Positions 20,759-34,092 of a stretch of 64,000 bases of DNA are shown piece after piece; within the stretch, counting starts at the first letter, position 1; each line of letters opens with the position of its first letter. The position numbers and the translations under genes were made by a program. This DNA is from Acidobacteriota bacterium (GTDB taxonomy: Bacteria > Acidobacteriota > Terriglobia > Terriglobales > SCQP01), in NCBI GenBank assembly GCA_021789895.1, contig JAJYIU010000020.1:1-64000 (forward strand), read 5' to 3'. Below the pieces are notes generated by a model, which saw only the letters and a program-made list of their open reading frames with translations, searched no databases and was not told where the DNA came from.

Positions 20759-21760
20759 TCAGTGCTGTGGCCGCCACCAGGGGGCCTGCGTGGTCCAAAA
20801 GATGATCCGCGCGCCCAGGTAATTTTGGGCAAAGTGGGCAAATTCGGATTGGGTGAAAGGCCGGCGGGTTTTCGGGTTCAGATATTTCAAATCGGGCTCC
20901 TGCACCGCCATGGCCACCAGCGGCAGGCGGCCGCGGTAGCGGTGAAAGAAGCGATAGGAGTTGCGCATTTGGCCGCGCAGGTAAGGGACCACGTCCGGCC
21001 CGCCCAAGCCGATGCCGCGGCGGCGGGCGAAGGCAAAAAAGCGGGACATATAGCGATGGTGGTTGCTCCAGCCGCAGGGCCAGAAGTTGACGTACTGCAC
21101 CACCGCCGATCGGCGGAAGACGCGGCGGGCGAAGGCGATATTTTCTTCGGTAGCGCGAAAATAGCGGCCGCAGGAAAAGCCGGCAGGGGTGCGTTGGGCG
21201 AGTATTTCGATGGAGGATTCGGGCAGGTTGATGCCCGCGACGCGGCCATCGAAGCGCCGGGCGAGGGCGGCAAGCAGGCGTTGAAAACGGCGGCGCACCG
21301 CCGGATTCCATTGCGCGGCGACCCAGCCGCGGAAGACCAAACGCCGTCCATGGCGGGCAAATTCCGGCGCCAGGCCGCCGCCATACCGCGGCCGGCGCAA
21401 TAGATATGCAGGAAGGCGGCGAGCCTGGCGGCTGAAAAACCGGTCTTGAAGCTGAACGAACAGCTTTTTATGCCGGCGCCGGAGGAAGCGGAGATCGCGC
21501 TCAATGGGGGAAAAATCGTAAGCGCCGGGCGCGGTCTCCAGCATCTTCCAGGAATATAAGACCTGCACGCCTTGAATTTCCGAGCGTTGAATCAGAGCGG
21601 CGAGGTTTTTTAGCCGGACCGGGCCGGTATAAAGGTAGTTTTTCACCGCGGGCGCGACGGCCAAGCCCGGCAGAGGAAAGCTGAAAAAACATACCCAGAA
21701 AAGCCGCCAGGGCGGATGCGCGAGGCGGGCGACGATATTGAAGTTTGCAGTATTTTTCAT
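20759..21760 (-). CDS. Secreted TIM-barrel glycoside-hydrolase-like protein
   Basis: 333 residues with an N-terminal hydrophobic leader ([20 protein letters not shown]). The pattern [42 protein letters not shown] is typical of clan GH-A TIM barrels such as GH5 or GH42: 'W..lE...G.Y.F' followed by a strand. Glu181 ([11 protein letters not shown]) and Glu288 ([10 protein letters not shown]) lie at positions that could be the acid/base and nucleophile. The family is not certain. The start codon overlaps the treS stop (ATGA), so it is the last gene of a four-gene operon with a two-component system and treS. A role in glycan turnover linked to trehalose metabolism is inference. Confidence 0.65.
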
Positions 21761-23415
21761 GCGCCTGCTTCAGGCGCCGGCGCCGCCGGGGGCTCCAACC
21801 GGAACAGGTAATAGCCGTAAGGGCCAAGCGTGATCTGGTAATCGCGGCTATTGATAGGGGGAAAGACGGCTTCGCCCAGCATCTCAATCGGGCGCCAGCC
21901 CTGAAAGCGGCGCAGATCCAAGCCGGCGGCCTGCGAGGTCTTGGCCAGGTTGGCGACCACCAGCACGGTGCGCTCCTGCGAGCTGCGCAGGTAGGCGAGC
22001 ACGCGGGGGTTGTCGGGCGAGAGAAATTCCAGCCGGCCGCGCGCCAGCACCGGATTCTGCTTGCGCAACTGAATCAGCGCCCGCATCCAATTGAGCAGCG
22101 AGCTGGGGTCCTGGAACTGCCGCTCGACGTTAACCGCCTGGTAGCTGTAGAGCGGATTTTGGATCAACGGCGAATAGAGCCGCTCCGGCGGCGCCTTGGA
22201 GAAGCCGCCGTTGCGGTCCACATTCCACTGCATCGGCGTGCGCACTCCGTTGCGGTCGGAAAGATAGATGTTGTCCCCCATTCCGATCTCGTCGCCATAG
22301 TAGAGGATGGGAGCGCCGGGCAGAGTGAAGAGCAGGATATTCATCAGCTCAATCTGGTGGCGGCTGTTTTCGACAATCGGCGCCAGGCGGCGGCGGATGC
22401 CCAGATTCAGCTTCATGCGCGGGTCGCGCGCGTACTCGTAGTACATGTAGTCGCGCTCTTCGTCGGTGCACATTTCCAGCGTCAATTCATCGTGATTGCG
22501 CAGGAACAGGCCCCACTGGCAGTTTTCCGGAATCGCCGGCGTCTGCTGCAGGATATCCACCACCGGCCGGCGAGTTTCCTGGCGGATGGCCATGAACAGC
22601 CGCGGCATCAGCGGGAAGTGGAAGGCCATGTGGAACTCGTCGCCCTGGCCGAAGTACTGCACCACGTCGGCCGGCCATTGATTGGCTTCGGCCAGCAGCA
22701 CCCGGTCGCCGCCGTAGCGCGCCTCCACCCGGGCGCGCAGTTCTTTTAAAAAAGCATGCGTTTCCGGCAGGTTTTCGCAATTGGTGTTCTCGCGCTCGTA
22801 GAGATAGGGGACGGCGTCGCAGCGGAAGCCGTCCAGCCCCAGGTCGAGCCAGTGATAGACCACGTTCAGCATGGCCTCGCGCACCGCGGGCTCTTCGTAG
22901 TTGAGGTCGGGCTGGTGCGCATAGAAGCGATGCCAGTAATACGCCTTGGCCACCGGGTCCCAGGTCCAGTTGCTGGCTTCGGCGTCGAGGAAGATGATGC
23001 GGGCGCCGGCGTAGCGGGTGGCGTCGCGGCCCCAGACATACCAGTTGCGATAGGGCGAATCGGGCGAGCTGCGCGACTGCTGAAACCATTGATGCTGATC
23101 GGAAGTATGGTTGAGCACCAGGTCAGTCAGCACCCGCAGGCCGCGGTTATGGGCCTCGTCGAGAAATTCGCGAAAGTCTTCCAGGGTGCCGTATTCCGGG
23201 CTGACGGTGGTGAAGTCGGAGATATCGTAGCCGTCGTCGCGCAGCGGCGAAGGATAAAACGGCAGCAGCCAGAGGCAATCCACCCCCAGCCACTGCAAGT
23301 AATCCAGTTTATCGAGCAGGCCGGGAAAATCCCCGATACCGTCGGCATTCCAGTCGGAAAACGCGCGCACCGGCAGCTCGTAGAAGATCGCGTTTTGGAA
23401 CCAGGCAGGAAGCAT
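21757..23415 (-). CDS. treS: Trehalose synthase / maltose alpha-D-glucosyltransferase (GH13)
   Basis: A 552-residue GH13 enzyme that interconverts maltose and trehalose. The beginning [29 protein letters not shown] and the barrel motifs [18 protein letters not shown] and [25 protein letters not shown] are TreS-like. The catalytic triad is visible: nucleophile Asp200 ([11 protein letters not shown]), acid/base Glu243 (LLAEANQWP) and Asp309 ([11 protein letters not shown]). Length fits stand-alone TreS, with no fused maltokinase. It starts 2 bp after the sensor kinase stop and its stop overlaps the next gene, so it is co-expressed with a two-component system. Trehalose serves as an osmoprotectant and carbon store. 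Confidence 0.93.
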
Positions 23416-23417
23416 GG

Positions 23418-25559
23418 TCAGGGGCGAGCGGGAACGCCGGCGGCGTCGGTGGGGGCGGCGGCCGGCGCCGCGGGGGGGGCCAGCGGCAGCAGCACGCGGA
23501 AGCAGGTGCCCTGCCCCGGCTGGCTTTCCACCTGGATGGAGCCCTGGTGCAGCTCCACCACCGAGCGCGCGAAATAGAGCCCCAGGCCGCTGCCGAACTC
23601 GCGCGCGCTCAGCGGGTTCTGAATGCGGGTGAATTTCTGGAACAGGTGGGGCAACTGGTCGGCGGGAATGCCGACGCCGGTATCGCAGACCTCGAAGCGC
23701 GCCTGCTCCGCTTCCCGCCGCACCGCCAGCGCAATGCGCCCGCCCTCGGGGGTGTATTTGATGGCGTTGTCCACCAGATTGGCCAGCACCTCGCGCAAGC
23801 GCATGGGATCGCCGAGCGCGATCACCGGCTCCGGCGGCGGCGTCATCAGGAGCTGCTGGCGGTAGCGCTGGGCGCGCGCCTGATACTCGGCCGCGACCGC
23901 GGCGGCCAGATGGCCGAGGTCCAACGGCTCATGCCGAATCTGCAACTGGCCCTGCTCCAGCCGGCTGACGTTGAGCAGGTCGTTGACCAGCGCGATCAGG
24001 CGCTCGTTGGCGTCGTAGGCGCGGCGCAGATAATCGCGCTGCTGCGGGTTGAGCCGGCCGAGCACTTCTTCCAGCAGCAGCGAGAGCGCGCCCTTGACGC
24101 CGCTCATCGGCGTGCGGAGCTGGTGGCTGGCGATGGAAATGAACTCGGTCTTCATCCGGTCCACTTCGCGCTCCTGGCTGGCGTCGTTGATCACCGCCAC
24201 GCAGCCGCTGACCTGCCCCTGATCATCCAGCACCGGGGCGGCGCTGAGGCTGACCGGGAGGCGGGTGCCGTCGCGCCGCACCAGCAACAGATCGCGGGCG
24301 AAGCGCAGCGCCTGGCGTTTTGCGATCGCCTGCCGCACCGGGTCCTGGGCGGCGCGCCCCGGCAGCTCCGGCACCCAGGCGAAGACTTCATCGTAGCCCC
24401 GGCCCAGCGCCTCCTGCGGCGGCCAGCGGGTAATCACCGCGGCGGCGCGGTTGAACTCGATCAGCCGCAGCTCGGCATCCACCGCGAACACGCCATCGCC
24501 GATGGAGCTGAGCAGGGCTTCATTGCGGTTGCGCCCGCTCTCCACCTCCTTGGTATAGCGCAGGTAGTAGCGGAACGCCGCCCGCAGCAGCAGCCCGCTG
24601 ATCACCGCCAGCACAAAGACAATCACCGCAATCACCGCCAGCTTGTCATAAAAAACACTGACGACGTAGCTGCTGAAGCGCTCCGGACGCGCCACCAGCA
24701 CCGCCTGCGAGCTATCGGGCAGCGGCGCGAAGGTGAGCGAGTTGGATTCGAGCGCGGTGGGGCGCAAAAAGCCGGTGGTGCCGGTGCGTCCGGCCAGCGC
24801 GGCCGCAAGCGCGGGCGAGGCGGCGATGCGGCCGGCGTTGAGGGGAGAGTTGGGCGGCAGCGAGATGGGCTGGCGGCGGCGGTCGAAGACATAGAGAAAG
24901 CGGTCGCTGCCGCGGTTGATGCTGTGCACCCAAGACGCGGGAATGCCGGCCGGCAGCGCGCCCACCAGCACGCCTTCGAGGCGCCCGCCCCAGCGCACCG
25001 GAGCGGCCAGCAGCAGCACCCGATGGCCGCCGTCCCGGGCCGCCAGCAGGGAGGAGGCATACCAACTTTTTTGCGCCGCTTGGAACCAACGACGGCCATT
25101 GGCCAGCGGCGCCCAGAGGGCGGAGGCCGCGGGCCATTGCGCTTCCAGCAGCCCGTCGAGTTGATACCAGGCCAGCGAGGTGAACTCGCGATGCTGGCCG
25201 GCGATCGAGCCCAACTCGGCGGCCACCGCGGCGCTGCTGCCGGAGGCGAGCGCGTGCCGGAGCTCGGTCTCGCGCCCGGCCGCCTCCAACGCGCCGGCTT
25301 CGCTGGCGTAGCTGGTATGCAGCAGCGCCAGCGCGAAGCCGCGCGTCTCATAATCGCTCTTCAGCGCCTGGTTTTCCGCCGCCTCCAGGCTGGAGGCGAC
25401 AATGTAGTACGTCAACAGCAGGATCGGCACCAGGCTGAGCACCACGAAGATGGCGGTCGAGCGCACCACCGAGGCGGTCAGCCAGCGCAGCGCGCGCTCA
25501 TACCATTGCGAGTGCCGCTGCAGCCAGCTTTCACTTGGTGTCCGCGCTTGTTCCCACAT
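23418..25559 (-). CDS. Membrane sensor histidine kinase (extracytoplasmic sensor, PAS, HisKA, HATPase)
   Basis: 713 residues. TM1 is about 33-53, an extracytoplasmic sensing region about 55-300, and TM2 about 308-330 ([21 protein letters not shown]). A PAS domain follows ([28 protein letters not shown] to about 460). The HisKA phosphoacceptor is in [17 protein letters not shown], then N box [14 protein letters not shown]1 CDTGVGIP, F box LFQKFTR and G2 [10 protein letters not shown]. It lies 24 bp after a response regulator and 2 bp before treS, all on the same strand. The signal is unknown. Because of treS, osmotic or carbohydrate stress is a reasonable but unproven input. Confidence 0.93.
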
Positions 25560-25583
25560 GCCGCGCCCCGTCCCGGGGCCACC

Positions 25584-26216
25584 TTATTCCTGCTGCGGTT
25601 CCTTCGCCGGCGCCTCCGGCGCGCGCTGGCATTGCGGGCAGCGCAGCCGGGCGCGGAAGTTGCGCGTCCAGGGATCGGAGAAATCGCCGGAGAGCAGCAG
25701 CACCAGCGCGCCGCCGCACTGCGGACAGCGGTAATCGCGCGGATAGCCCAGCAGCGAGGCCAGGCCCGCCGCATCGCCGCGCTCCGGATCCACGAACAGC
25801 TCGAAATTAGCGATCGGACGCACCCCGCCGCCCTCGGCCAGCAGCTTCTTCACCCGCTGCACCACCTCCGCCGGCGTGACTTCGCTCTTGACCAGGTAAT
25901 CGGTGGCGCCCATGCGCGCCGCTTCGTGCTTGTCCATGTGCTGGCCGAGATTGGTGAACAGCACCACCGGCACGGAGGTAAAACGCCGGTCGGCGCGCAA
26001 GGCCTTGAGCACCTCAAAGCCGCTGAAGTCGGGCAGGATGACGTCGAGCAGGATCAGATGGGGCTGGTCCTGACGCGCCCGCGCCAGCGCTTCGCGTCCG
26101 TTTTTCGCCTGGCTGACGGTAAACCCTTCATGCGCCAGCCGCAGCGCATAGGCGTCGCGGATGAGGTCTTCATCTTCAACAATCAGCACGTTGGGAGTTT
26201 CGGCGATGCCCGGCAT
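25584..26216 (-). CDS. Response regulator: receiver domain with C-terminal zinc ribbon
   Basis: 210 residues. The receiver domain (about 8-128) has the acidic pair VEDEDL, phosphoacceptor Asp58 (HLILLDVILPDFSG), the switch Thr/Ser region LFTNL and Lys110 (DYLVKSE). In place of a DNA-binding domain, the C-terminus (160-198) carries two CxxC knuckles: Cys164-Cys167 (YRCPQCGG) and Cys193-Cys196 (LRCPQCQR). This is a probable zinc ribbon for protein or nucleic-acid contact. It heads the operon with the kinase, treS and a glycosidase-like gene. It may act post-transcriptionally or by protein binding rather than as a classical activator; that is inference. Confidence 0.9.
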   Translation of the reverse strand: MPGIAETPNVLIVEDEDLIRDAYALRLAHEGFTVSQAKNGREALARARQDQPHLILLDVILPDFSGFEVLKALRADRRFTSVPVVLFTNLGQHMDKHEAARMGATDYLVKSEVTPAEVVQRVKKLLAEGGGVRPIANFELFVDPERGDAAGLASLLGYPRDYRCPQCGGALVLLLSGDFSDPWTRNFRARLRCPQCQRAPEAPAKEPQQE

Positions 26217-27985: not shown

Positions 27986-29095
27986 TCAGGCGACTTCGCA
28001 GAAGACTTTGATCTGGTCGGGGGCGTTGGATTCCATCAGCGTCTTAAACAGATCCTGAAAGCGGCCCAGGCCGGCGACGGGGTGGGTCAGCATACGCTCC
28101 AGCCAGCCGGGATAGAGGGCTTCGGCGAGGACCATGTCGGAGACGCCGCGCACGAAATCGTCACGGCTGGCATTGACTGAGCCCAGCAGCAGCTTGTTGC
28201 CGAGCACAAACTCCAGGTTGATCTGATCGGAGTTGACGGTGGTGGTGCGGGCGCCGCCGGTGACGCTAGTCCAGACCAGGACGCCATTCTTCGCCAGCGC
28301 CTGCATGGCGTCAAAAGCCATGGGCGAATAGCCGGTGGCCTCGAGCATGAGATCGAAGGGGCCATATTTTTTGGCGGCATCGGCCAGAGTCACTTCCCGG
28401 CTGGAAAGATAGACCGCGCCGAGGTCCGCCAGCAGGCGCGCCTGGAGCGACGGCCCGGTGGTCAGGCCGAAGGTGACCACCTCCAGGCCGCGCAGGCGGA
28501 GCGCCAGCGTAGCCAGCAGTCCGATGCTGCCGGCGCCGGTGACGGCGGCGCGGCGGGGGCGCCAGATGCGCATGCGGCGCTGGGCCTCAAAGGCCTGGGC
28601 AATGCCCTTCTGGACGATGGAAAACGGCTCCATCATCACTGCGGGGTTGCGGATTGCCGGCGGGATTTTCACCAGGTAATCGGCGGATTCGACGTAGGCT
28701 TCGGCGAGATAGCCGTGCAGCAGATTGATGCCGCGCTCGTAATAGATGCCGTCGGTGGTCATATCCTGGGAGCCAATCTGGTCATAGAGGCTATGGCCTG
28801 GACGGCGAACGGTAGCCACCACCAGATCGCCGGGGGCAAACTCCTTCACCTCGGGCCCGGCCTGCTCCACCTGGCCCAGGCTTTCATGGCCTTCGATCAG
28901 GTAATCGCTGCCGGCGGGCGGGGCGCCATAAAGCCCTAACTGCAGCTCTTTATCGGTGCCATCCACGCCGACGCGCAAGACTTTGACGCGGACGCCGCGC
29001 CCGCCGGGAACCGAATCCTGTTCCGGCAGCGGGGCATCCACCAGGCGGGCGCTATGAGGCTGGCGGGGAGTAATCGCGACAGCTTGCATGGACAT
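27986..29095 (-). CDS. Zinc-type glucose 1-dehydrogenase-like MDR
   Basis: A 369-residue medium-chain dehydrogenase resembling archaeal-type glucose dehydrogenases that oxidise glucose to gluconolactone with NAD(P). The Zn site region reads RVGVDGTDKELQLGLYG, with Asp45 in place of the usual Cys as in haloarchaeal GDH, then IEGHESLGQV (His70, Glu71). The Rossmann motif is AAVTGAGSIGLLATLAL. Late motifs INLEFVLGNKLLLGSVNASRDDF are also GDH-like. Substrate assignment is by resemblance only. It lies 56 bp downstream of the OtsA fusion on the same strand. Glucose from trehalose breakdown would be a logical substrate, but this is inference. Confidence 0.82.
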   Translation of the reverse strand: MSMQAVAITPRQPHSARLVDAPLPEQDSVPGGRGVRVKVLRVGVDGTDKELQLGLYGAPPAGSDYLIEGHESLGQVEQAGPEVKEFAPGDLVVATVRRPGHSLYDQIGSQDMTTDGIYYERGINLLHGYLAEAYVESADYLVKIPPAIRNPAVMMEPFSIVQKGIAQAFEAQRRMRIWRPRRAAVTGAGSIGLLATLALRLRGLEVVTFGLTTGPSLQARLLADLGAVYLSSREVTLADAAKKYGPFDLMLEATGYSPMAFDAMQALAKNGVLVWTSVTGGARTTTVNSDQINLEFVLGNKLLLGSVNASRDDFVRGVSDMVLAEALYPGWLERMLTHPVAGLGRFQDLFKTLMESNAPDQIKVFCEVA

Positions 29096-29151: not shown

Positions 29152-31449
29152 TCAGCTCGCATCGGCGCGAGATAAAGAAGCCGCCGGCTCGCTGCCGGCG
29201 GGGTGGGCCGCCGGCCGGAGCTCGGCCAGATCGGAGATCAGCGAGCCCGCCCAGCGGAACACATTGCGTTCGCGCACAATCCGGCGCAGGTTTTGCATGC
29301 GGGTGCGGCGCTCGTCCGGGTCCATTTCCAGCGCCTGCCGGAGCGCATCGGCGAGGCTTTCGGTATCGTAAGGGTTGACGATCAAGGCCTCCGGCAGCTC
29401 GCGGGCTGCGCCGGTGAAGCGGCTGAGAATCAGCATTCCCTGCTCATCGTCGCGGGCGGCGATGAATTCCTTGGCCACCAGGTTCATGCCGTCATGCAGC
29501 GCGGTGACCAGGCAGACGTCGGCATGCTTGTAGTAAGGCTCGATTTCGGCGCGGGAATGCTCGCGCAACAGCAAGACAATGGGGCGCCATTGCGAGGTCT
29601 GGAAACGGCGGTTGATGCGGGCGGCCTCGGCCTGCACTTCCTCGATCAGGTCGCGATAACGGCCGATGCGGGTGCGGCTGGGGGCGCCGATCTGTATGAA
29701 GGTGAATTGCTGGCGATAGACCGGATATTTTTCCAGGAAGCGTTCGATGGCCGCCAGCCGCTCGAGGATGCCCTTGGTGTAATCCAGGCGGTCCACACCC
29801 AGGCCGAGAAAGATGGAGTTGACGCCGAGGTTTTGGAACAGGGTGGCGCGCTCCACAGTGTCGCCGCGCTCATCCGTCGGCGCCGGCATCATCGGCTCGG
29901 GGAACTCCACGCTGATCGGATAAGGGCGCACCAGGGTGCGCTGGCCGCCGCGGTTGACGGCGGAGCGGTCCCAATCAATGCGCGATTCCAGGGCGGCATC
30001 CACCGTCTCGAGAAAATAATTGCAGTGCGAGCGGATATGGAAGCCGATCAGGTCGGCGCCAAGCAGCCCATCGAGCAGTTCGCGTTGCCAGGGGCAAATG
30101 CCAAACGCCTGCGGGTTGGGCCAGGGGATATGCCAGAAGATGGCGACGCGGGCATCGGGACGATGCTGCTTGATCAGCCGCGGCAGCAGGGCGAAGTGAT
30201 AATCCTGCACCAGGACGCAGGGGGCCTCGGCGCCGGCCATTTCCTGCAGGGCGACGCGGGCGAATTTGCGGTTGACCTCCTGGTAGTGTTCCCAATCGGC
30301 GCCGCGGAACAAAGGCCGGGCATGGGCGATATGGCACAGCGGCCAGAGCCCTTCGTTGGCGAAACCGAAATAATAGCCTTCGTTTTCCTCGCCGCTGAGC
30401 CAGACCCGGCGCAAGGTGTAATGGGGGTCGTCGGGAGGGACGCGCAGCCGGTCCCAGGCGTCAACGGTCTGGCGGTCGGCGCTGCCGGTGCCCTGGGCGA
30501 TCCAAGTGCCGTCGCAGGCGCGCAGAATCGGCTCCAGGGCAGTCACCAGACCGCTGGCCGGCACGGAAACGGCGATGCCCCGGCCGGTGGCGGAGTGTAT
30601 ATATGGCTCGCGGTTGGAGATGACAAACAGGCGGCTGTCTTCAAGGCAGGTCTGCACATGGACGCGGAGGCGCTCGGCTGTCCAGAGCGAGAGCCCGGAG
30701 GCGCGCAACCGGGCTTCCAGGCTGGCGGCGGCGCGGGCCTCGTGCAGGGTTTGCGCCAGGCGCGCGGCTTCTTCCGCCAGCGGGCGCAGGGGATCGCCCA
30801 CCGGCGAAGGCGGCGGGCGGGGAGCGAGCGGTCGCTTGCGCAGCTCGCGCATCCAGTGCGCGGTCCGCGCCAGCGGGCGGATGAAATAGACGCGGTAAAC
30901 GGCCCAGGCCAGCAGCAGCACCAGCGGGATCACCACCAGCACCATCCAGAACGCGGAATGCCAGGTATGCAGAATATCGGCCTGGATATAGCTGGCGTCA
31001 TAAACCATCGCCAGCGCGCCGGTCACCGAGGCGCCGTGGTGCAGCGGCACGGCGAAGAGGTATATGGATTGGCCATCGAGGCTGAGGAATTGGCCGCGGC
31101 CGCCATTTTCCGCGGTGGCCTGCACCACCGCGGCCGGCAAGCGCGCCAGCCGGGGCTCCAGCCAGGAGGTGACGGCGAGATGGTTGCCCTGATCGTCGTA
31201 AACCGCGAGACCCAGCAGGTCTTCCCGGTTCCCCAGCCGCTGAATCTCCTCCGACAGGGCCGGCTGCCGTTGCGGCAACATCAGCGGATCTAAGCGGTCT
31301 TGAAAGTAACCGGCGAGGCCTTCGGCGCGGCGCTGCAATTCACGGCCGAGTCCTCGGCGCTGGGTGCGAACCTCCACCAGGGTCAACAGGAAGATGGAGG
31401 CCGCGGTCGAGAAGATCAGCAGCAGGATCCAATGCAGCCGAATCCTCAT
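29152..31449 (-). CDS. Membrane-anchored HAMP-linked trehalose-6-phosphate synthase (OtsA fusion)
   Basis: 765 residues with two parts. Residues 1-240 look like a sensor: TM1 ([21 protein letters not shown]), a periplasmic domain (about 35-155) with a PAS/Cache-like strand [21 protein letters not shown]2 ([23 protein letters not shown]) and a HAMP-like linker starting [18 protein letters not shown]. From about residue 272 a complete OtsA (GT20) domain follows: [12 protein letters not shown], the [14 protein letters not shown] motif, [29 protein letters not shown] and [12 protein letters not shown]. OtsA makes trehalose-6-phosphate from a nucleotide-glucose and glucose-6-phosphate. No otsB phosphatase is present nearby. 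It is tightly placed (18 bp) after polA on the same strand. Confidence 0.92.
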
Positions 31450-31467: not shown

Positions 31468-34092
31468 CTAATTCAGATCGCGCCAATTCGGTCCGGTGCC
31501 CGACTCCGCCACCAGGGGAACGCTCAGCTCCGCCGCGGTTTCCATTTCGCTGCGCACCAGTTCGGCCAGCGCGGGGGCGTCCGCGGCGGGTGCTTCCAGC
31601 ACCAGCTCATCATGCACCTGCAACAGCAAGCGGGCGGAAGCGCCGGCGAGGCGGGCCTGGACGCGCACCATCGCCAGCCGCATCAGATCGGCCGCCGTGC
31701 CCTGCAAGGGGCTGTTGATGGCGGTGCGTTCGGCAAAGCCGCGCTGCGCAGGGTTGCGGCTGTTCAAGTCGGGAATCGGACGCAGGCGTCCCCACAGGGT
31801 GCGCACGCTGCCGGTCTCGCGGGCGGCGCTCAACTGCTGGTCAATGTAGCGGCGGATGCCGGCATAGCGCTCGAAGTAGCGGCGGATGAAATCCGCCGCT
31901 TCCGCCTGCGGTATGCCCAACTGGCGCGCCAGGCCGAAGGCGGAGAGGCCGTAGACGATGCCAAAGTTCACGGCTTTGGCGCGGCGCCGCTGGTCTTCAT
32001 CAATCCGATCGGGCGCGATGCCGAACACTTCGGCGGCGGTGAGGCGGTGAATGTCGCCGCCGGATTGATAGGCGGCGAGGAGCAGCGGATCCTGGCTGAA
32101 ATGCGCCAGCAGGCGGAGCTCGATCTGGGAATAATCGGCGACTACCAGCAGATTGCCGGGAGCGGCGCAGAAGGCGGAGCGGATTTGGCGGCCCAAGCGG
32201 CTGCGAATCGGGATATTTTGCAGGTTGGGATTGCTGGAAGAAAGCCGTCCGGTGGCCGTTCCGATCTGCGAAAAACTGGTATGCAAGCGGCCGGTGGGGG
32301 CCACCAGCGGGGGCAAGGCATCCACGTAGGTGGACTGCAATTTCGCGAGCTGGCGGAATTCCAGCACCTTGGCCGCAATCGGATAATCGGGGGCCAGTTC
32401 TTCGAGCACGTCCCCCGCGGTAGAAAGCGACTTGGTTTTACCGCGGCGGGCGGGGGCCGGCAGGCCCAGCTTTTCAAACAAGATTTCGCCCAACTGGCGG
32501 GGGGAATGGAGATTGAAGCGGGCGCCGGCGAGCGCATAGATTTCCAGTTCCAAGGCCTGGCATTGCCGGCTCAGCTCGCTCGAGAGTGAGCGCAGGGCGG
32601 CGAGATCCACGCCCACGCCGGCGATTTCCATGGCTTCGAGCACCGGCGCCAGGGGCAGATCGAGATCGCCATAGACCGGCCAGAGGCGGGCGGCTTCGAC
32701 TTGCGCGCGCAGCGCCGGCGCGAGGCGCGCCAGGGCGCAGGCGGCCGCGGCGGCATCGGATTCCCAGGCCATTTCCAAGCGCGCGCGCGCCAGCGATTCC
32801 AGATCGTAGCGGCCGCGGGTAGGATCGAGCAAATAGGCCAGCAGTTGCGCATCGAGCAGGCGATCGGCGGCATGCGGCGGCAGGGGCTGGCGCCAGCTAC
32901 GCAACTGCCGGCGGAGCCGGCGGCAATCGTGGGTCAACCAGGCGCGGGCGGGGTGCGAGAGTTCCGCGGCCAGAGCGGGCAACAACTCCGGGCCGACCAG
33001 GCCGGCTTCGTTTTCCGTGGCCAGGCCCAGGCCGGCGACCCCGGGCAGCGGCGAAACGTCCGATTCGGCGGCAAACAGCGCCAGCGGGCGGGCGCCGTGC
33101 TCGCGCAGCCAACCCGTCAAATCCGCCGCCGTGGCCCAAGCCAGCCGGCGCCAGGGCGCGGCGACGGCGGCCGGCGGCGCCATCCCCGCTGCGGGGGGCG
33201 GCAAATCCTTCAGCAAAGTGTGGAATTCCAGCTCGGTAAAGAGCGCGCGGCAAGCATCCACGTCGGGTTCGGCGACTCGCAGCGCTGCAAGATCAAGGCG
33301 GATCGGCGCGGCGGTGTCGATGGCCGCCAATTGGCGGCTGAGCAGGATCTGGTCGCGATAGTTTTGCAGCGCTTCGCGGTACGATTTACGCTCGACCTCC
33401 GCGGCGCGCTGCAAAAGCGCATCCAGGGCGCCAAAGCGCGAGATCAGATCGCGCGCGCCTTTCTCGCCGATGCCGGGAGCGCCGGGAATATTGTCCACCG
33501 CATCGCCGCGCAGGGCCATCAGATCCACGACCTGATCGGGGCGGACGCCCAACAGGTTCTGCACTTCGGCGGTATCGCAGAGCAGGTCGCCGCGGGTAGG
33601 GTTGAGCACACAGATGCAGTCATTCACCAACTGCAGCATGTCTTTATCGCTGGAGACGATCACCACCGACAAGCGGCGTTCCGCCGCCTGGCGGGAGAGG
33701 GAGCCGATGAGGTCGTCGGCTTCGAAGCCGGACATTTCCAGGATCGGCAGACGCAGCGCTTCAGCCGCGCGGCGCACATAGGGAAGCTGCGCCGCCAGTT
33801 CTTCCGGCATGGCCGGGCGGTGGGCTTTATAGGCGGTGTAAGCCTGCTCGCGGAAGGTGGGGCCGGGAGCGTCCATCACCACGGCCAGATGGGGCGGTTG
33901 CGCCTGCTTCAGCAGCTTGCGCACCATGTTGAGGAAGCCCAGGGTGGCGTGGGTCGGCAGGCCGCGGGTATTGGTCATGCGCGGCAGGGCATGGAAGGCG
34001 CGGAAGACGTAGCCCATGGCATCCACCAGGTACAAGTCGGCGGAGGGCCAGGAGCGCCGGGCGGGGGCCGAGGATGGGGCGGCGTCAGGCAA
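31468..34092 (-). CDS. polA: DNA polymerase I
   Basis: 874 residues. The 5' nuclease domain (about 18-290) has LYLVDAMGYVFRAFHAL, GFEADDLIGSLS, VVIVSSDKDMLQLV and GDAVDNIPGAPGIGEKGA. The polymerase domain has motif A DYSQIELRLLAHFS, motif B RRRAKAVNFGIVYGLSAFGLA and motif C LLQVHDELVLE. The middle 3'-5' exonuclease-like domain lacks the DxE and other acidic motifs (for example LALFAAESDVSPLP), so proofreading is probably absent. The start codon appears to be TTG at 34092; no ATG or GTG is available before the conserved N-terminus. The upstream NTF2-like gene ends 13 bp before it. Confidence 0.95.
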   Translation of the reverse strand: MPDAAPSSAPARRSWPSADLYLVDAMGYVFRAFHALPRMTNTRGLPTHATLGFLNMVRKLLKQAQPPHLAVVMDAPGPTFREQAYTAYKAHRPAMPEELAAQLPYVRRAAEALRLPILEMSGFEADDLIGSLSRQAAERRLSVVIVSSDKDMLQLVNDCICVLNPTRGDLLCDTAEVQNLLGVRPDQVVDLMALRGDAVDNIPGAPGIGEKGARDLISRFGALDALLQRAAEVERKSYREALQNYRDQILLSRQLAAIDTAAPIRLDLAALRVAEPDVDACRALFTELEFHTLLKDLPPPAAGMAPPAAVAAPWRRLAWATAADLTGWLREHGARPLALFAAESDVSPLPGVAGLGLATENEAGLVGPELLPALAAELSHPARAWLTHDCRRLRRQLRSWRQPLPPHAADRLLDAQLLAYLLDPTRGRYDLESLARARLEMAWESDAAAAACALARLAPALRAQVEAARLWPVYGDLDLPLAPVLEAMEIAGVGVDLAALRSLSSELSRQCQALELEIYALAGARFNLHSPRQLGEILFEKLGLPAPARRGKTKSLSTAGDVLEELAPDYPIAAKVLEFRQLAKLQSTYVDALPPLVAPTGRLHTSFSQIGTATGRLSSSNPNLQNIPIRSRLGRQIRSAFCAAPGNLLVVADYSQIELRLLAHFSQDPLLLAAYQSGGDIHRLTAAEVFGIAPDRIDEDQRRRAKAVNFGIVYGLSAFGLARQLGIPQAEAADFIRRYFERYAGIRRYIDQQLSAARETGSVRTLWGRLRPIPDLNSRNPAQRGFAERTAINSPLQGTAADLMRLAMVRVQARLAGASARLLLQVHDELVLEAPAADAPALAELVRSEMETAAELSVPLVAESGTGPNWRDLN

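Follow-up and report, generated by a model that had tools for sequence, protein, structure and literature searches.

A trehalose-6-phosphate synthase domain joined to a Cache-HAMP receptor in Acidobacteriota: a candidate one-component receptor-enzyme

The outputs known for HAMP relays are kinases, cyclases, diguanylate cyclases, and chemoreceptors. Known trehalose-6-phosphate (T6P) synthases of the OtsA type, for their part, are soluble, whereas the protein described here, encoded in a 64,000-nucleotide stretch of acidobacterial DNA (the whole of which is referred to below as the window), has a membrane receptor of 270 residues ahead of the enzyme. With the OtsA of Escherichia coli and the T6P synthase of Mycobacterium thermoresistibile it shares the whole GT20 fold and the substrate-contact residues, and the pairing with otsB that goes with such enzymes is common to most of its fused relatives, but it is only 33% identical to E. 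coli OtsA and lies below the NCBIfam equivalog cut-off. The second system to which it can be compared is that of the Cache-HAMP sensor histidine kinases (WalK/CitA-like, represented in Acidobacteriota by L092-L102), with which TM1, the single Cache domain, TM2, HAMP, and the ensuing helix are homologous end to end; in contrast to these kinases, the fused protein lacks HisKA and HATPase domains, contains a degenerate HAMP, and has a glycosyltransferase as its output.

A third comparison is offered by Na+/H+ exchanger-GT20 fusions of the same phylum (L116, L117, and others), which also tether a related GT20 enzyme to a membrane module, but in which an antiporter with approximately 12 TM helices (PF00999) takes the place of the Cache-HAMP part and which have a branch of their own in the GT20 tree; the tether possibly serves coupling to the envelope or to ions. 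In L117:292-3048 (plus strand) and L116:1569-4310 (minus strand), the exchanger (PF00999, 5e-25 and 2e-20, respectively) is in-frame with a GT20 OtsA domain and, judging by TM count, L125-L132 likely represent the same fusion. This arrangement suggests that trehalose synthesis may be tied to ion or proton transport in these proteins, and its separate occurrence in the phylum suggests that membrane-tied trehalose synthesis may have been favored more than once. In open-access full text, no paper was found on a HAMP- or Cache-linked OtsA or on an antiporter-OtsA fusion; omics data on the acidobacterium Granulicella sp. WH15 place OtsA, fused or not, among the proteins raised at high sugar (PMC7074687).

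We consider it probable, albeit by no means certain, that the fused protein is a one-component inner-membrane receptor-enzyme that tunes trehalose production in response to an envelope signal; that a ligand is bound, which direction the response takes, and that HAMP gates the enzyme are inferred parts of this reading. This reading draws on computed features, namely, the architecture, the homology to kinase receptors, the intact catalytic residues, the co-inheritance of both parts, the selection acting on the sensor, and the pairing with OtsB.

The fused gene and its surroundings

The fused gene is a single open reading frame on the minus strand, running from an ATG at 31449 to a stop at 29152, exactly as delimited in the initial annotation of this DNA (Table 1). 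Since the same fusion was found again in dozens of genomes, it is not an assembly artefact. The gene order polA-fused otsA-dehydrogenase is shared with the sister species (L004) but is lost at greater distance; the dehydrogenase neighbor is limited to the same genus and is absent in L044. A promoter scan returned nothing above chance.

Table 1. Positions of the fused gene, its domains, and neighboring genes in the window (residue numbers refer to the fused protein)
Feature	Position	Strand	Remarks
Whole fused gene, receptor plus T6P synthase	29152..31449	minus	765 aa; no internal stop; relatives with the same architecture
TM1, residues 7-25	31375..31431	minus	Hydropathy 2.41; one helix (2-56) in models, running into the periplasmic domain
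Predicted periplasmic single-Cache (PAS-like) sensor domain, residues ~29-158	30976..31365	minus	Fold H-H-EE-H-EEE; structural and profile matches; dN/dS 0.09
TM2, residues 166-184	30898..30954	minus	Hydropathy 2.69
Predicted degenerate HAMP, residues ~186-240	30730..30894	minus	Two helices joined by a connector that varies in length; retains P192 but lacks DExG
Helical linker, residues 241-272	30634..30729	minus	Same length in almost every relative of the main clade
GT20 trehalose-6-phosphate synthase domain, residues 274-742	29224..30630	minus	PF00982, E=1e-112
Upstream gene polA, DNA polymerase I	31468..34092	minus	NF004397, 944 bits; 18 bp gap to fused gene
Downstream gene, glucose-dehydrogenase-like MDR oxidoreductase	27986..29095	minus	PF16912, 1e-46; 56 bp gap
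TreS-type trehalose/maltose interconverting enzyme	21757..23415	minus	TIGR02456, 909 bits (cut-off 678)

Sensor region, linker, and descent

When the window protein was searched by itself, Pfam reported no HAMP (PF00672) and dCache_1 only at 0.24 (11.3 bits against a gathering cut-off of 45), and NCBIfam reported neither HAMP nor a significant Cache match. We ascribe this to limited sensitivity, since profile, shuffle, and reciprocal searches detect both domains. Among 22 fused relatives, Pfam found sCache_3_2 in six (best, 5e-6) and the PF00672 HAMP in two (best, 0.007). A profile built from these 22 relatives (A2) matched Cache-HAMP histidine kinases of the same phylum over positions 1-262, at 1e-21 to 1e-37; the four matched kinases that were tested in Pfam all contained HAMP (4e-14 to 5e-8), HisKA, and HATPase. 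Reciprocally, a profile built from nine Cache-HAMP histidine kinases only (A3) was searched against the entire genome to which the window belongs, and its top match was the N terminus of the fused protein (6.4e-20, positions 1-249). Aligned profile to profile with hhalign, A2 and A3 matched over 268 columns (99.8% probability, E 2e-28), and the HAMP region alone matched that of histidine kinases with 96% probability (E 3e-9). Finally, the HAMP region of the window protein scored 15.0 bits, compared with 9.3 at best among 1000 shuffled controls. The HMM search for HAMP and Cache domains that had been suggested as a check was thus negative on the protein alone and positive once profiles of its relatives were used, and the outcome named in advance as speaking against a receptor, namely, profile searches devoid of any HAMP or sensor fold, did not arise when relatives were included.

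As structural matches to the full-length model extended over the enzyme part only, the N terminus was folded and searched by itself. In the model of residues 1-275 (mean pLDDT, 80), a long helix and a shorter-range second one precede a PAS-like sheet, after which come TM2 and the helix pair of HAMP; it displays the layout of a single Cache domain, with a long N-terminal helix and a PAS-like sheet between the TM helices. Its best match among solved structures was the WalK sensor (VIA-align Z 13.7, rmsd 3.2 Å over 136 residues), followed by the CitA sensor (Z 12.1, rmsd 3.0 Å over 126 residues); sequence-profile matches of the sensor domain to solved sensors were 3b42, 5o7j, and 4u64. The two TM helices flanking a periplasmic domain, which the initial annotation had proposed along with a structure prediction of this region, are therefore recovered both by hydropathy and by a model in which a WalK/CitA-like single Cache lies between them. 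Its proposal of a HAMP-like linker also holds up, in the form of a degenerate HAMP that is Pfam negative but is supported by the relatives' profile, the reciprocal search, hhalign, and the shuffled controls. Following TM2, predicted helices 153-205 and 222-251 form a helix-connector-helix unit, and a proline in the first HAMP helix (P192) occurs in every one of the 20 main-clade rows. DExG, the motif with which the second HAMP helix would begin, is absent: the window protein has D-P-L-R where the kinases have D-E-F-G. Together, profiles and models support the view that the N-terminal 272 residues represent a single-Cache sensor plus a degenerate HAMP, homologous to kinase receptors.

The spacing between the second HAMP helix and the enzyme varies remarkably little: in the main clade, E227 and W256 are 29 residues apart in 20/20 rows, and the distance from W256 to N279 is 23 residues in 18 of the 20 rows and 24 in the other two. 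The HAMP connector, measured from P192 to E227, ranges from 32 to 44 residues among main-clade rows. In a sister subclade (L020, L021, L058, L060, and L063), HAMP is undetectable and the linker is 7 to 10 residues shorter. A mechanical relay requires a helical linker whose length is fixed, and a mere tether would tolerate a changed length. Purifying selection acts on the Cache domain and, in the closest pair (window versus sister species), is as strong there as on the enzyme (dN/dS, 0.091 and 0.119, respectively); Cache diverges faster than the enzyme in all other pairs that were compared, with its dN/dS remaining within 0.09-0.25 overall.

Among 396 evenly drawn Acidobacteriota genomes, 34, from at least a dozen families, carry the fusion. 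A scan of contigs from close relatives yielded one locus only, in a sister Acidobacteria MAG, and plasmid records searched beyond Acidobacteriota contained no full-length match to the fused protein. On the GT20 tree, receptor-bearing enzymes fall into one supported clade (96/89), in which 37 of 43 rows carry the receptor, and mapping receptor presence onto the tree takes 4 label changes, versus 26.9 in shuffles. This looks like one gain followed by a few losses and, more specifically, like the joining of a kinase-type receptor to the enzyme via domain fusion, with long co-inheritance afterward. The receptor has been lost in clade members L112, L113, L115, and L124; since, in addition, a member from Aminobacter has a single TM helix only, the enzyme does not strictly need the receptor.

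Two of these sequences deserve a remark. First, an apparent loss in genome G124 turned out to be a copy split by a frameshift (L103:2557-3681 and L059:1378-2799, on G124:C19); the frameshift lies inside the start of the GT20 domain, leaving sensor and enzyme in two frames, and reflects either an assembly error or a pseudogene. Second, the Aminobacter relative (L066:4779-6599), which has one N-terminal TM helix and no sensor, is located on plasmid pANY103b, where its neighbors encode a HAD-IIB hydrolase, a GT4 enzyme, and an amylo-alpha-1,6-glucosidase. Its position inside the receptor-bearing clade of the GT20 tree possibly reflects transfer from Acidobacteriota.

Proposed relay and the alternative of a passive anchor

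In the proposed receptor-enzyme, the periplasmic single Cache would bind a small molecule or sense the state of the envelope or the osmotic conditions. The resulting change would travel through TM2, the two HAMP helices, and the fixed-length helical linker into the cytoplasmic GT20 domain, where it might alter the oligomeric arrangement or the opening of the active site, such that glucose transfer from NDP-glucose to glucose-6-phosphate would go up or down with the outside condition. OtsB, encoded next to the fused gene in most relatives and elsewhere in the window genome, would then take off the phosphate, and trehalose would build up. Control of T6P synthesis by a signal from outside, as first proposed from the window alone, is plausible.

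The main rival holds that the N-terminal part merely keeps OtsA at the membrane and dimerizes it there, for example, near an exporter, with Cache and HAMP surviving as a relic of a kinase. The same observations that count against a receptor-enzyme speak for such an anchor: the HAMP is degenerate, lacking DExG, and is gone in one subclade, the receptor has been dropped by some clade members, and the Aminobacter relative retains nothing but a single TM anchor. The shorter linker of that subclade and the faster divergence of Cache outside the closest pair also count against a receptor-enzyme. Against an anchor stand the strong purifying selection on Cache, close to enzyme level in the closest pair, the retention of the Cache fold over many families, and the invariant length of the linker, and we consider a passive anchor unlikely.

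We would assign an even chance to the proposition that, in Acidobacteriota, osmolyte synthesis is regulated on the protein itself by a receptor-enzyme of this type, with a Cache-HAMP receptor directly gating a glycosyltransferase. If true, the receptor-enzyme would represent a new class of HAMP output, embodied in the only OtsA of many carrier species. A glycosyltransferase of central metabolism in that role would test the generality of HAMP signaling, and, in a phylum that is dominant in soil, a single protein would link an external cue to the making of a stress protectant, bypassing any signaling cascade.

The enzyme domain and the fate of its product

The enzyme part of the window protein matches PF00982 at 377.7 bits (gathering cut-off, 32.5) over profile positions 3-472 of 473 and contains both [16 protein letters not shown] and LHDGMNL, in keeping with its original description as an intact OtsA with the diagnostic motifs. 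Downstream of HAMP, Pfam gives only GT20 and weak GT-B matches; HisKA and HATPase are absent from the window protein. The E. coli OtsA residues that we take to be the contacts for glucose-6-phosphate and NDP-glucose (R10, Y77, W86, D131, H155, R263, K268, R301, and D362, plus LVAKE) are all retained in the alignment, their counterparts being R280, Y360, W369, D416, H440, R554, K559, R592, D653, and LVAKE at 657-661. In the GG pair, E. coli G22 is replaced by S299, a change also seen in the soluble OtsA paralog of the same genome, and F340 of E. coli OtsA aligns with H631. The full-protein model matched T6P synthases with Z scores of 40-43.5, including 43.5 for the M. thermoresistibile enzyme and 42.2 for E. 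coli OtsA.

With 410.9 bits, the window protein does not reach the cut-off of TIGR02400, the NCBIfam OtsA equivalog (564.85), and was therefore filed as an OtsA-like GT20 rather than as an OtsA equivalog; the glucosylglycerol-phosphate synthase model was matched as well (286.9, cut-off 569). T6P synthase activity is something that we strongly infer from the features above and not from a database assignment. While these two scores would accommodate an enzyme that makes a related product under receptor control, such as glucosylglycerol-phosphate or another glucoside phosphate, this is very improbable given that the positions through which E. coli OtsA contacts glucose-6-phosphate and UDP-glucose have conserved counterparts in the alignment, that the closest structural matches are T6P synthases, and that the partner gene encodes a trehalose-phosphatase (PF02358).

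The window contains no otsB, as noted in the initial annotation; the sole PF02358 match of the genome is on another contig, C76, where it adjoins a second, soluble OtsA. From the missing neighbor, it had been suggested that the product might persist as a T6P signal, and a survey of the fusion with and without otsB had been recommended. Run on 30 carriers, that survey speaks against the suggestion: in 19 of them, the gene directly downstream of the fused one, in the same orientation, is otsB; in 2, otsB is within about 2 kb on the same strand, and in 1 it is a convergent neighbor, while it is found elsewhere in 4 and a PF02358 match is missing in 4. Moreover, 25 of the 30 have no GT20 enzyme other than the fused protein, including the sister species G001, where otsB is likewise distant. 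With otsB directly downstream in so many carriers and no second GT20 in most, the fused proteins are, by gene content, predicted to serve most carriers as their regular OtsA for making trehalose, which disfavors T6P left undegraded as a signal; it also means that the question of receptor control touches the whole trehalose supply of these bacteria.

That the fused copy makes T6P as an intracellular messenger instead of a precursor is, accordingly, a reading to which we give very little credence. It could appeal to the lack of otsB inside the window, to the four carriers without a PF02358 match, and to the second, soluble OtsA beside otsB in the window genome, next to which the fused copy could be specialized, but it is at odds with the otsB genes that directly follow the fused gene in most carriers, with the sister species, which has the fused GT20 only plus a distant otsB, and with the presence of treS 5.7 kb from the fused gene in the window. 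It could apply mainly to genomes with a second OtsA, such as that of the window, and to the four without a PF02358 match.

One carrier that lacks a clear otsB, G056, has a gene for a HAD hydrolase (Hydrolase_3/S6PP-like; PF02358, 27.1 bits) directly upstream of the fused gene (L040:10630-11349, minus strand), which possibly encodes a replacement phosphatase. An operon comprising treS and the fused gene was considered and dropped, as treS is not near the fused gene in the sister species (L004). In the window, treS is packed on the minus strand (21757-26216) with the genes of a two-component system, namely, a response regulator (25584-26216) and, adjoining treS, a histidine kinase of the Cache/PAS type (23418-25559), with gaps of a few to approximately 25 bases.
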